A DNA stretch of 64,000 nt, taken from NCBI GenBank assembly GCA_030432235.1, contig JAUIHT010000001.1, positions 1,302,001 through 1,366,000 on the forward strand, written 5' to 3'. Made by a program: the position numbers and the translations under genes. This document shows, one piece after another, positions 16,082 to 60,890 of the stretch. Each line of letters opens with the position of its first letter. Position 1 is the stretch's first letter. Source of the stretch: Verrucomicrobiia bacterium. Lineage in GTDB: Bacteria > Verrucomicrobiota > Verrucomicrobiia > Opitutales > Cerasicoccaceae. The notes under the pieces were generated by a model, which saw only the letters and a program-made list of their open reading frames with translations, had not been told where the DNA came from and did no database searches.

Positions 16082-16164
16082 GGCGGAAATATTCCTGAAA
16101 AGCGTTGCTAGGGCTTGAGGGTTGGCGCAGACTCCTTAATGTTAAAGAGTTAAGCAAACCTTCT

Positions 16165-18832: not shown

Positions 18833-18845
18833 ACTAAAAAGATAA

Positions 18846-18918
18846 TCACGCAAAGACGCCAAGGCGCAGAGATGTTTCTGTTGCGACCTTGTCTTTGCGT
18901 CTTGGCGTCTTTGCGTGA
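18846..18918 (-). repeat. Intergenic hairpin repeat of 8-nt period (copy A1)
   Basis: Perfect 18-bp inverted arms, TCACGCAAAGACGCCAAG at 18846-18863 and its complement at 18901-18918, sit between the two ATPase genes of the importer operon. The left arm is itself a degenerate tandem repeat of about 8 nt (ACGCAAAG, ACGCCAAG, GCGCAGAG). See the hairpin-family finding. Confidence 0.8.
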
Positions 18919-31927: not shown

Positions 31928-31932
31928 CTTGA

Positions 31933-32010
31933 ACCACGAAATAGACGAAATTCACGAAAAAATAGAATACGACTTTTATAACTTTTCGTGAATTTCGTCT
32001 ATTTCGTGGT
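31933..32010. repeat. Intergenic hairpin repeat of 9-nt period (copy A2)
   Basis: A perfect 28-bp inverted repeat (31933-31960 with 31983-32010, 22-nt loop). The left arm is three degenerate 9-mers (ACCACGAAA, TAGACGAAA, TTCACGAAA). It follows the hemB stop and is followed by a T-run, so it may also work as a bidirectional terminator. Confidence 0.85.
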
Positions 32011-43431: not shown

Positions 43432-44670
43432 TCATTGAGGCTGGATGCCGGCTGTTTCCTTCAACCTGAAGGAAAGAATCAGGCCGATGAGGAGCCCCAC
43501 GGGGTAAATGAGCAGAGCCCATTGAAACTCTGGTGTGGTTGCGCCGGCGACGCTTGAGCTGTCCTGGTTGAACAGATGGATTATCAGCCCCGGTAGGTAC
43601 TGCATCAGCGAGGCACCGACGAAGATGGCTGTATTGAGAATGCCGACGGCGGTGGTGGCCAGGCGGTCGGGCACGGATTCCTTGATAAGGACGTAAAGCA
43701 CCGCGTAGTAAAAGGACGAGGCCACCGATGCGCTGAAGGCCAGGATGGCTTCCAGCCAATGGGGCGCCGTGGGCCAGGCCACGATAATGGCGATGGGCAC
43801 GAGTGTGGCGGCGAGTCCGGCTACGATGATAGCCTTGCGGCGCCTGAGCCGGTCGGATACCCAGCCGGCGAAGAACATCCCGAGACCCATGCCAAACATC
43901 ATCAGGGCTACCATCCAATCGGCCATGGTGCGCGAGAACCCGAGCTGCACGACGTAAGGCAGGTACCACAGACCCGCAAAAGCCACGATGCCACCGCTGG
44001 TAAGCCCACCGATTAGAAGCCCGTACCAGAGCTGTGGCAGAGCCAGAACGGCGGTAAGGTCGGCGCGGACGGACCGAGGCTTGCTGGACCGGCTCTCTTT
44101 GGGCAGCTGGAGGTCGACCCATACGAGGCAGGCCAGGAACACCAGGTAAACCACCGCGATTCCGCCGAAGTAGTTGCGCCAGCCTATAGCGGCCAGAAGC
44201 GCCGGCATGGCTGCCATCGTGGCGAGCAGGAGCACGAACTTTGCGCTCTGGTTAAAACCCAGCAGCCGTGCGAAGAGGTGAGGCTCGAAATGCTTCGCCG
44301 CAATCGCAACATAGCCGAGAAAGAAAAAGCCGCCGCCGATGCCGGCCAGCAGACGCCCCAGCAGGGCCAGACCGTAGTTGGGCGCGTAGCCAAAGAGCAG
44401 GTTGCCTGCGGAAAAGGCCAGGCAGGCGATAATGAGCAGCCGCGTGGGCTTATAGCGCGCGAAGAACAGCCCGGACGGAATTTGCAGTACCCCATAGACA
44501 AAGCTGAAAGCGCCGAAAAGAATCGCGGTTTGCGAGGCATTGGTTCCCAGGCTTTTTTCAACATCATGCGTAACCGCGCCTACCGTGAAGAACTGCAGGT
44601 TCAGACCGGCGAGAATGGCCGTTGTCAGCCCCCACAATAGCCACCGGTTCGGAGCTGTCGCATTGCTCAT
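43432..44670 (-). CDS. MFS transporter
   Basis: A 412-residue major facilitator superfamily protein with about 12 membrane helices. Motif A-like loops are RYKPTRLLIIACLAFSAG after helix 2 and GWVSDRLRRRKAIIVAG between helices 8 and 9, with the central loop about residues 200-215 (PKESRSSKPRSV). The fold is that of organic-anion or nucleoside-type permeases; substrate unknown. Converges with the oxoprolinase gene, so coupling to uptake of its substrate is possible but only inferred from position. Confidence 0.85.
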   Translation of the reverse strand: MSNATAPNRWLLWGLTTAILAGLNLQFFTVGAVTHDVEKSLGTNASQTAILFGAFSFVYGVLQIPSGLFFARYKPTRLLIIACLAFSAGNLLFGYAPNYGLALLGRLLAGIGGGFFFLGYVAIAAKHFEPHLFARLLGFNQSAKFVLLLATMAAMPALLAAIGWRNYFGGIAVVYLVFLACLVWVDLQLPKESRSSKPRSVRADLTAVLALPQLWYGLLIGGLTSGGIVAFAGLWYLPYVVQLGFSRTMADWMVALMMFGMGLGMFFAGWVSDRLRRRKAIIVAGLAATLVPIAIIVAWPTAPHWLEAILAFSASVASSFYYAVLYVLIKESVPDRLATTAVGILNTAIFVGASLMQYLPGLIIHLFNQDSSSVAGATTPEFQWALLIYPVGLLIGLILSFRLKETAGIQPQ

Positions 44671-44735: not shown

Positions 44736-44765
44736 TCTCACGCAAAGACCCCAAGAGCGCAAAGG
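44736..44765 (+). repeat. Half-copy of the short-period repeat near the AT-rich orphan gene
   Basis: TCTCACGCAAAGACCCCAAG and following AGCGCAAAGG carry the same 8-9 nt pattern as arm A1 (TCACGCAAAGACGCCAAG). No complementary arm was found close by. Confidence 0.55.
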
Positions 44766-44774
44766 GAAGAGGGG

Positions 44775-44798
44775 AGGGCGCAGACTTCAGTCAAGCCG
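44775..44798 (+). repeat. Left inverted repeat flanking an AT-rich orphan gene
   Basis: A 24-nt sequence starting AGGGCGCAGACTTCAGTCAA that matches the reverse complement of 45458-45481 with two mismatches. A shorter piece (GGCGCAGACTCC) also occurs near 16125. Confidence 0.65.
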
Positions 44799-44808
44799 CT
44801 CGTTTGAA

Positions 44809-45405
44809 TTATGTGCGTTTCGTACGGTTGTTCTCTATAGTAGTGGTTTTATCTGCCAGAAGCCGTATAAAATCTTTTTCATTTGAGGCGTCACAAGCAT
44901 AGTCCCAGGCCCAATCTACGTAAATTAAGGGAGACTGTGAAGAGAGTGCCTTAACAGTATTAGCGCAGATTTGAATACATTCATCTTTGGCGTCAAAGAA
45001 ACTAGTCCACACATGTTGAACTACTTTCGCATCATTCCAGTCTGCGAATATACAGCATGAATCTGAAAGTCCCCAAGCTCCAGTCATTCGGCAAACCTCA
45101 CGATATGAGCTGTACCCTGTGAATACGTTATCAAATTTTTGCAAAAAATGACTAACGCATCGGTCAAATGTATCTAGGTTCATACCCAAATCACCAAATT
45201 CACTATCAAGTGCCTCTCGCACATAGACATCTGTCCAGCCCAGTCCTTCTGGAGCTTGATGTGCTTTTGAAAACTCAGCTACTTTGTTTAGCTCTTGGGA
45301 AATGACATCACTCTTAGAGGAAGGCAGTAATTGCTGCTGACAATAATCGTCCTCGTGAAAGTAAATTTCACGCGCCTTTGGAGATTTCTTAAAAGGCCAA
45401 ATCAT
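44809..45405 (-). CDS. AT-rich orphan protein of unknown function between inverted repeats
   Basis: A 198-residue protein, clearly more AT-rich than its neighbours, suggesting acquisition. Hydrophilic with no signal or membrane segment. It opens with a conserved-looking acidic stretch, IYFHEDDYCQQQLLPSS, and carries several Cys and Trp residues (SSCC-like SDSCCIFADW, VDWAWDYACDA). I do not recognise the family; the general look is of soluble small proteins found as scattered cargo, including immunity-like ones. The gene is bracketed by 24-nt inverted repeats at 44775-44798 and 45458-45481. It has no operon partner. Confidence 0.65.
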   Translation of the reverse strand: MIWPFKKSPKAREIYFHEDDYCQQQLLPSSKSDVISQELNKVAEFSKAHQAPEGLGWTDVYVREALDSEFGDLGMNLDTFDRCVSHFLQKFDNVFTGYSSYREVCRMTGAWGLSDSCCIFADWNDAKVVQHVWTSFFDAKDECIQICANTVKALSSQSPLIYVDWAWDYACDASNEKDFIRLLADKTTTIENNRTKRT

Positions 45406-45441
45406 TTGAGCTATGTGTGGATTAGTTTTGGGAAAAGCAAA

Positions 45442-45481
45442 GCGTAATTATTACGCACGGCTTGACGGGAGTCTGCGCCCT
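45442..45481 (-). repeat. Right inverted repeat plus palindrome flanking the AT-rich orphan gene
   Basis: A perfect palindromic GCGTAATTATTACGC (45442-45456) is followed by the 24-nt partner (45458-45481) of the left repeat at 44775-44798. Confidence 0.65.
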
Positions 45482-45504
45482 ACCTTCTGAGGGGCAATGT
45501 ATTG

Positions 45505-46518
45505 TTACGCGAAGCCTAGCACGGGATGGGGTGTGTAGGGATTTTCCATCGTTTTGATATCCTCTTCCGTTAGCTCGATCTTTAAAGCGGCGAGGGCGTC
45601 GTCGAGGTGGGTGAGTTTGGATGCGCCGATGATGGGGGCGGTGATGGCGGGCTTGGTCAGCATCCAGGCGAGGGCGGTCTGGGCGGGTTTGACGCCGTGC
45701 TTGGCGGCGACCTGGGCGTTGGCCTCGGCCACGGCGAAGTCGCTCTCGGCGAAATACATTTTGCCGGCGAAGTCGTCGGACTGGGCGCGGGTGGTTTCGC
45801 CGCCGCCGGTCTTGTGGCGGTTGCCGGCGAGGAAGCCGCGCGCGAGGGGGCTCCAGGGGATGCAGCCGATGCCCTCGGCGAGGCACAGGGGGATCATTTC
45901 GCGTTCCTCCTCGCGGTAGATGAGGTTGTAGTGGCCCTGCATGGTGACGAAGCGGGTGAGGCCGAACTGGTCGGCGAGGTAGAGGTATTTGCAGAACTGC
46001 CAGGCGTGCATGCTGGAGGCGCCGAGGTAGCGCACCTTGCCGGCCTGGACGAGGTCGTGCAGCGCGGTGAGGGTTTCCTCCATGGGCGTGTTGTCGTCGA
46101 AGCGGTGTATCTGGTAGAGGTCGATGTAGTCGGTGCCGAGCCGGCGCAGGGAGGCGTCGCAGGCGGCCAGGATGTGCTTGCGTGAGAGTCCCCAGTGGTT
46201 CATGCGCTTGGGCGTGTGGGTGCCGTTGTAACACTTGGTGGCGATGACGAGGTCCTCGCGGTCGGGGCAGAGCTCTTTTAAAATGCGCCCGGTGACCTCC
46301 TCGCTGACGCCGTTGCTGTACATGTCGGCGGTGTCGAAGAAGTTGATGCCGCCGGCGAGGGCTTTTTCGTAAAAGGGGCGCGAGGCCTTTTCGTCCAGCA
46401 CCCAGTCGCGCCACTCGGGCGAGCCGTAGGTCATGGTGCCAAGGCAAATGCGCGAGACCATCGTGCCGGTCGTGCCCAGGCGGGCGTAGGCCATGTCGGG
46501 GTTCGGTGTAAAGCTCAT
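45505..46518 (-). CDS. Aldo/keto reductase
   Basis: A 337-residue TIM-barrel NADP(H)-dependent reductase. Catalytic tetrad regions are visible: FDTADMYSNG (Asp, Tyr), VIATKCYNG (Lys), IDLYQIHRFDD (His). The phosphate-binding end IIGASKLTHLDDALAAL is normal for the family. The long central stretch PLARGFLAGNRHK places it with the YajO/Tas-like (AKR11-13) group. The PhyH dioxygenase upstream on the same strand is separated by a putative terminator. Confidence 0.92.
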   Translation of the reverse strand: MSFTPNPDMAYARLGTTGTMVSRICLGTMTYGSPEWRDWVLDEKASRPFYEKALAGGINFFDTADMYSNGVSEEVTGRILKELCPDREDLVIATKCYNGTHTPKRMNHWGLSRKHILAACDASLRRLGTDYIDLYQIHRFDDNTPMEETLTALHDLVQAGKVRYLGASSMHAWQFCKYLYLADQFGLTRFVTMQGHYNLIYREEEREMIPLCLAEGIGCIPWSPLARGFLAGNRHKTGGGETTRAQSDDFAGKMYFAESDFAVAEANAQVAAKHGVKPAQTALAWMLTKPAITAPIIGASKLTHLDDALAALKIELTEEDIKTMENPYTPHPVLGFA

Positions 46519-60701: not shown

Positions 60702-60722
60702 GAATTACCTATTTGAAAGAGA

Positions 60723-60798
60723 AACCACGGAACACACAGAAGACACGGAATGCTGAATACCGCTTTTCTATTCCGTGTTTTCTGTGTGTTCCGTGGTT
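60723..60798. repeat. Intergenic hairpin repeat of 9-nt period (copy A4)
   Basis: A 29-bp inverted repeat with one mismatch (60723-60751 and 60770-60798) between the hemC start and ilvC stop. The left arm is three degenerate 9-mers (ACCACGGAA, CACACAGAA, GACACGGAA). Confidence 0.85.
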
Positions 60799-60890
60799 AA
60801 AATTGAAGTCTCTTTTACAAAGAACGCGAAGCCGGCTTGGGGGGATTCCCTGAGCACGACTTCGCGTATCTTGAAAGTAATCGCGTGGAT

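Follow-up and report, generated by a model that had tools for sequence, protein, structure and literature searches.

RAYTs (TnpA-REP), the HuH/Y1 single-strand transposases, are thought to move REPs or REP pairs, according to the accessible parts of PMC6006769 and PMC8266576. Two known arrangements are built from these elements. A REPIN is an inverted REP pair with the heads outward and a spacer of tens of bases, and a REPtron consists of inverted GTAG-type REPs, also with the heads outward, enclosing one AT-rich gene, that of the RAYT. REPs of the GTAG type are reported in Opitutus terrae in the available text of PMC3733652. Among open papers, covered mostly by their listings, no account was found of mobile units in which REPs enclose unrelated genes, save for one replacement in E. 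coli (PMC6006769, in its accessible part).

The window, which is the whole stretch of 64,000 nucleotides analyzed here (G000:C37:1302001-1366000), comes from a 5.72-Mb Verrucomicrobiia genome in 42 contigs (G000). It contains a 711-bp unit at 44773-45483 with a GC content of 43.0%, compared with 60.8% and 64.1% in the adjoining kilobases. The unit holds one intact open reading frame with an ATG start (44809-45405, minus strand) encoding 198 amino acids, and in this the first-pass annotation, which described an AT-rich gene of that length between inverted repeats, was correct. The unit ends are inverted copies of a GTAGGGCGCAGACTnCnGTCAAGCCG-like sequence. The left REP copy, GGAGGGCGCAGACTTCAGTCAAGCCG (44773-44798, plus strand), has its head outward and its tail into the unit, with the head one change from GTAG. 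The right copy, GTAGGGCGCAGACTCCCGTCAAGCCG (45458-45483, minus strand), has the GTAG head outward. The 24-nt core with two mismatches had been read in the sequence, and mechanical detection found 44-nt inverted arms (44768-44811 and 45445-45488, 80% complementary) with 633 nt between them. Also confirmed were a 15-nt palindrome, GCGTAATTATTACGC, just inside the right REP (45442-45456, centre base unpaired) and a short-period repeat, CGCAAAGACCCCAAGAGCGCAAAG, on the left side of the unit. A TCTCACGCAAAGACCCCAAGAGCGCAAAG repeat is located just outside the left REP (44736-44764, plus strand). A TCTCACGCAAAGACGCCAAGACGCAAAG-type repeat adjoins both this unit and the second cargo unit of the genome (L059, described below). 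It was noticed post hoc, and a scan of 11 further stretches, retrieved around the remaining REP-like copies in G000, did not find it.

Inverted 24-nt pairs (two mismatches or fewer, within 1500 bp) gave 26 overlapping matches in the window, compared with 0 in 30 dinucleotide shuffles. The 20 listed matches fall into four places (the cargo unit and short-range repeats at 18845, 31930 and 60722), so membership in a dispersed family is the better evidence for the unit ends. The three short-range inverted repeats are of other families: TCACGCAAAGACGCCAAG at 18845-18918, ACCACGAAATAGACGAAATTCACGAAA at 31930-32010, and AACCACGGAACACACAGAA...CACGGAAT at 60722-60800. A fragment of the repeat was initially also placed near 16125. 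The sequence there reads TTGGCGCAGACTCC. An 11-mer scan with one mismatch allowed found 4 matches in the window, both unit ends included, while 2.1 were expected by chance. The fragment is therefore at most a weak, decayed half repeat.

Both neighbours of the cargo gene are co-directional with it: an aldo/keto reductase gene lies upstream (45505-46518, minus strand) and an MFS transporter gene downstream (43432-44670, minus strand). As the cargo gene starts approximately 50 nt inside the right repeat, read-through from the aldo/keto reductase gene would be the simplest source of its transcript. On the minus strand the palindrome at 45442-45456 is followed by a T-rich run and is terminator-like (2 such sites in the region vs 1.4 in shuffles); promoter-like and terminator-like sites near the unit are no more numerous than expected by chance. 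The first-pass annotation proposed to look for target-site duplications, and none was found: the outer borders of the unit share no direct match as long as 3 nt, even when they are shifted by up to 4 nt. Y1 transposition is not known to leave a target duplication. In a search for an empty site, 18 relatives were probed with the adjoining aldo/keto reductase gene, and none gave a match at E 1e-80.

The unit ends are GTAG-type REPs, a known kind of element, and fit those of PMC3733652 as described in its available text. A whole-genome pattern search allowing three mismatches found 12 copies of the 26-nt family in G000, including both window ends (reversed-pattern control: 0). At two mismatches or fewer, 7 of 88 genomes (G000 included) contain copies, with 0 in the controls. 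These are G000 (10 copies), the same-family genomes G001 (51), G005 (40) and G009 (43), as well as G007 (3), G047 and G048 (1 each). The family is thus dispersed in many copies, and two of those in G000 (L065 and L066) overlap long open frames. Inside these frames the REP copies were seen to read as RAQPTGKP.

The copies share a GTAG head (GTAG in the right window end and GGAG, one change away, in the left) and a bulged hairpin. The outer stem is GGC/GCC, and the middle pair of the inner stem varies, being C-G, A-T or T-A depending on the copy. All 12 G000 copies were aligned with copies from 14 of the 24 loci retrieved in relatives. The alignment comprises 22 distinct sequences, in which 92.4% of cells pair. 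The covariation score is 0.192 vs a shuffled mean of 0.069; 0 of 500 shuffles scored as high, and sliding the partners destroys the signal. By this score the family is an imperfect palindrome with compensatory change. The number of pairs changed on both sides (2) was reached by 98 of 500 shuffles and the number of pair types (6) by 71 of 500, neither being beyond chance, and the two window ends alone fold no better than their own shuffles. A covariance model (E <=0.5) was scored on 150 candidates per genome, which makes its counts lower bounds: at least 19 matches in G000, at least 91 in G001, at least 61 in G005, at least 2 in G003, and at least 1 each in G002 and G006. Among the candidates scored in four other genomes there were none. 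REPs of the family flank a RAYT gene in G005 (L106) and G001 (L108) and a decayed one in G009 (L095); this was not seen in G000.

For 9 of the 12 REPs in G000, GC content drops towards the tail at 300 nt (p 0.02; p 0.009 at 500 nt). When the three listed ends of the two cargo units are left out, the drop is seen in 6 of 9 (p 0.16; 0.07 at 500 nt), and it is absent in relatives (10 of 24). The idea that every G000 REP might mark the edge of an AT-rich insert is only suggestive. Single REP or REP-like copies were seen directly beside AT-rich genes of 140, 153, 135 and 185 amino acids at L060, L061 and L058 in G000, and none of these four frames has a Pfam match. The 135-aa gene at L061 has at its far end the sequence CAGCAGCTTGCCCTACC, which may be a decayed REP. 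An attC-like (integron) motif, a candidate only, was seen in the vicinity of L060.

The first-pass annotation proposed a search for other genes with the same termini, and such genes exist. The second cargo unit of G000 (L059:4420-5249, G000:C37:1014419-1015248) is 830 bp long and has a GC content of 44.3% between flanks of 62-63%. Its REPs are inverted with the heads outward, and the enclosed gene encodes a 255-aa protein with a LEM-3-like GIY-YIG match (E 3e-18); a search of 35 other genomes at E 1e-10 found it in 0. The two REPs of L059 differ from each other at several positions. The left one is weaker: it was missed by the 26-mer search and has a 13-nt match only, from a search with 15 matches vs 6 in the control. 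In both cargo units of G000 the shift in GC content is located at the REPs, left and right.

Among the relatives, REP pairs enclose RAYT genes with a Y1_Tnp match in G005 (L106, 147 aa) and G001 (L108, 158 aa). The decayed RAYT of G009 (L095) is in two pieces and has one internal stop. These RAYT-bearing units span 537-619 bp and have a GC content of 45-49%. A 174-aa ORF with no Pfam match is found between REPs in G009 (L094), and by eye it looks like a membrane protein. It has a homologue in G001 (37%) with no REP nearby among the matches listed. A 532-bp heads-out pair in G005 (L107:2290-2821, contig C10) contains no intact gene. The outer flanks of L107 were seen to be inverted copies of each other, without a mismatch over at least 30 nt. 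L094, L106 and L107 possess an inner extension, AAGCCGCnnCnCTGGAGTGGC, which was seen in neither cargo unit of G000.

The arrangement of pairs was counted from listed positions in four genomes (13 in G000, 80 of 91 in G001, 58 of 61 in G005, 43 of 43 in G009), with the left end of L059 added by hand to the G000 set. Listed pairs up to 250 bp apart obey the REPIN rule (51 heads-out, 4 direct, 0 heads-in). Among the listed copies there are 31 short REPINs in G001, 16 in G005 and 4 in G009, and short pairs account for the majority of listed copies in G001 and G005, for few in G009 and for none in G000. At 250-1500 bp, 8 heads-out, 4 direct and 2 heads-in pairs are listed. Five of these (1 heads-out, 2 direct and 2 heads-in) arise in G001 from short REPINs that lie close to one another. 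This leaves, as isolated long pairs of the four genomes, 7 heads-out, 2 direct and 0 heads-in, or 4 heads-out and 2 direct when the three RAYT units are subtracted. Two of the 7 heads-out pairs hold an intact RAYT, one a decayed RAYT, one no intact gene, and three other genes. Random placement of 13 copies yields two or more such pairs at P about 5e-5, and random placement of 12 copies, with the window unit alone considered, yields at least one at P 0.007, under a null that ignores REP clustering. For 7 of the 12 G000 copies there is no listed partner within 1.5 kb.

The distribution of RAYTs was compared with that of the REPs. At E 1e-6, the L106 RAYT has matches within the family in G001, G003, G005 and G009, but G000 gave none. 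Five other Y1_Tnp matches are present in G000, and in a small database made of their loci only one (L023) proved distantly related to these RAYTs (19-25% identity). None of the five is located at either cargo unit. As candidates for a cognate transposase within G000 they were rejected: none matches the L106 RAYT at E 1e-6, and their loci yielded no full REP even with 5 mismatches allowed. Because no close match to that RAYT was found in G000, the window unit is probably immobile now. Near the IS200-like transposase gene at L022 (G000:C42:281560) a 13-nt REP fragment, GTAGGGCGCAGCC, was seen among other palindromic repeats. At L023 (G000:C39:23311) a longer Y1_Tnp gene is found among GGAACGCAGCTCTCCTGAGCTGC palindromes, perhaps a different REP-like system, and its neighbours look by eye like a restriction system.

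The correspondence between RAYT and REP is not uniform in the relatives. G003 has a RAYT but hardly any REP copies, with 2 weak matches among the 150 candidates scored, which fits no simple rule. At the RAYT loci L113, L114 and L118 no such REP was found within 5 mismatches, and these RAYTs may serve other REPs. The overall pattern suggests that the REP family is still served by a RAYT in G001 and G005 and is decaying in G000.

The cargo protein was initially called unrecognised, and no match was found for it in Pfam, NCBIfam, PHROGs or PADLOC. A search of 87 further genomes from its family and order, the nearest of which belong to other genera, found the gene in 0. In a species collection, relatives were detected at 19 loci, in Phycisphaerales (47% identity), Desulfobacterales, Anaerobacterium, a Chloroflexi genome, Janthinobacterium, Ruminococcus and Flavobacteriales, among others. 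The family is sporadic in distant phyla, and the gene is horizontally acquired. An alignment of 18 sequences (the window protein and 17 of the 19 homologues) has 15 invariant columns, all of which are present in the window protein, as is the N-terminal motif of the family, YFHEDDYCQ. Judged by these sequence features, the proteins constitute an unnamed, widespread family, defined here as the HEDDYCQ family. In one Ruminococcus genome (L038:4995-5510) the homologue was seen between frames that by eye resemble cysteine desulfurase and ThiI.

Several of the 19 loci are truncated by contig ends, and neighbouring genes were Pfam-scanned in ten of the 19. A gene for KptA (RNA 2'-phosphotransferase) adjoins the homologue or is near it in 4 of 19 loci (L026, L028, L029 and L033, by Pfam and tblastn), and overlaps it in L026 and L028. 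PARG and ADP-ribosylglycohydrolase genes are additionally present in L029. SUFU/Imm33 and DUF4259 genes are found nearby in L030, and an Imm51 gene in L035. Plasmids gave a single, distant match (22% identity), encoded on an Asticcacaulis plasmid a few genes from the RNA-repair genes Pnkp and Hen1; a search with the L026 protein recovered it, whereas one with the L029 protein did not. Phages and viral contigs contained no homologues. KptA gave no match in G000, which makes the window gene an orphan in this respect. To our knowledge, the role of KptA in bacteria is unclear.

The structure model of the cargo protein has a pLDDT of 91. No confident relative was found in the fold search, a result that excludes no family: the best Foldseek E-value was 0.4, and the best fold comparison was with ZipA, of the ZipA/SirA-like folds (Z 6.4, 113 aligned residues, 3.6 A). 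Judging from its neighbours, the family most likely comprises accessory or immunity-type proteins of RNA-damage and ADP-ribose systems. An uncontrolled look for inverted repeats around 8 of the 19 homologue loci gave scattered pairs of 16-25 nt with 76-88% complementarity, some of them spanning the gene by coincidence (L026). By eye none of these repeats resembles the window ends.

The explanation tentatively preferred here, though far from secure, is that the window unit is a REPtron-like unit with foreign cargo, in which the gene and its two REPs form one historical unit. The spacer of a REP pair would have become a foreign gene. A RAYT would then have acted in trans, cutting at the GTAG heads and rejoining REP-gene-REP as single-stranded DNA. 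Subsequent loss of the RAYT from G000 would have left the unit fixed, with its intact gene probably expressed via the read-through proposed above. A unit, or a preferred site, explains better than independent REP insertions why heads-out pairs predominate, why GC content changes at the REPs, and why two foreign genes unrelated to each other share one design. An origin in which the foreign gene entered an existing REPIN spacer, or replaced the RAYT gene of a REPtron by recombination, is somewhat less likely and has precedents: in the accessible parts of the respective papers, REPs are known insertion targets (PMC1525189), DNA insertion into REPINs was suggested by Bertels and Rainey (PMC3116915), and toxin/antitoxin genes have taken the place of the REPtron locus in E. 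coli strains (PMC6006769). The REPs would then be the scar of a host site, and the RAYT units of relatives are indeed similar to the cargo unit in size and GC content. However, an independent event would be needed at each of the two G000 loci, neither of which has any of the five Y1_Tnp matches of the genome, and the inner extension shared by L094, L106 and L107 is missing from both.

The absence of heads-in arrangements among the isolated long pairs (7 heads-out and 2 direct over four genomes) also speaks against a gene that arrived through common horizontal transfer and was flanked only later by single REPs, which do land between genes. This sequence of events is rather unlikely, as random placement makes inward-facing pairs around foreign genes unlikely and the composition change meets the REPs on both sides. 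It would nevertheless agree with the large share of single REPs in G000 (7 of 12), with the mutual differences between the L059 REPs, and with the G001 homologue of the L094 gene, near which no REP is found among the matches listed. An ordinary chromosomal gene of the lineage with chance repeats around it is very improbable. Such a gene would be co-directional with its neighbours, which this one is, but it would also be expected to be syntenic in relatives and normal in composition. The cargo gene is instead found in 0 of 87 other genomes and has a GC content of 43%, and its ends come from a dispersed family.

If the REPtron-like origin is extended to the family as a whole, RAYT-served REP pairs would be gene-carrying cassettes, and a domesticated single-strand transposase would spread accessory genes and not only empty REPINs. 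The single foreign genes captured between inverted REPs would here be a KptA-linked gene of RNA-damage or immunity type, the GIY-YIG gene of L059, and the 174-aa gene of L094, which resembles that of a membrane protein. This generalization is doubtful. If REP pairs do hold and move unrelated genes, they would have a role in gene acquisition, with a bearing on why bacteria keep RAYTs and REPs. The cargo of the window unit also points to a widespread unnamed protein family beside the RNA-repair enzyme KptA.

Compared with known systems, the surroundings of the cargo relatives resemble KptA/Tpt1 RNA-repair neighbourhoods at L026, L028, L029 and L033 and immunity-gene islands at L030 (SUFU/Imm33) and L035 (Imm51), while the window gene stands alone in a genome without a KptA match. 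The first-pass annotation suggested a small mobilised cassette or MITE-like capture. It was right about mobile-element ends without a transposase, since these REPs flank RAYT genes in relatives, but the ends are not the terminal inverted repeats of a MITE or transposon. Non-autonomous transposons and MITEs share with the unit the terminal inverted repeats and the lack of an own transposase. The window ends are REP hairpins, and a classical transposon or MITE was rejected on account of the ends belonging to the REP family and the missing target duplication. The likeness to a REPIN lies in the inverted REP pair with the heads outward, and the same REP family makes short REPINs in relatives, but the window arms are 633 nt apart with a gene between them, where a REPIN has only tens of bases. 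With a REPtron the unit shares inverted GTAG-REPs, heads outward, around one AT-rich gene, at a length of 711 bp vs 537-619 bp. It differs in that the window gene, which has no Pfam match, is not a Y1 transposase, and the cargo sits in the place of the RAYT. Strictly, the unit is neither a REPIN nor a REPtron but a REPtron-like variant with unrelated cargo.
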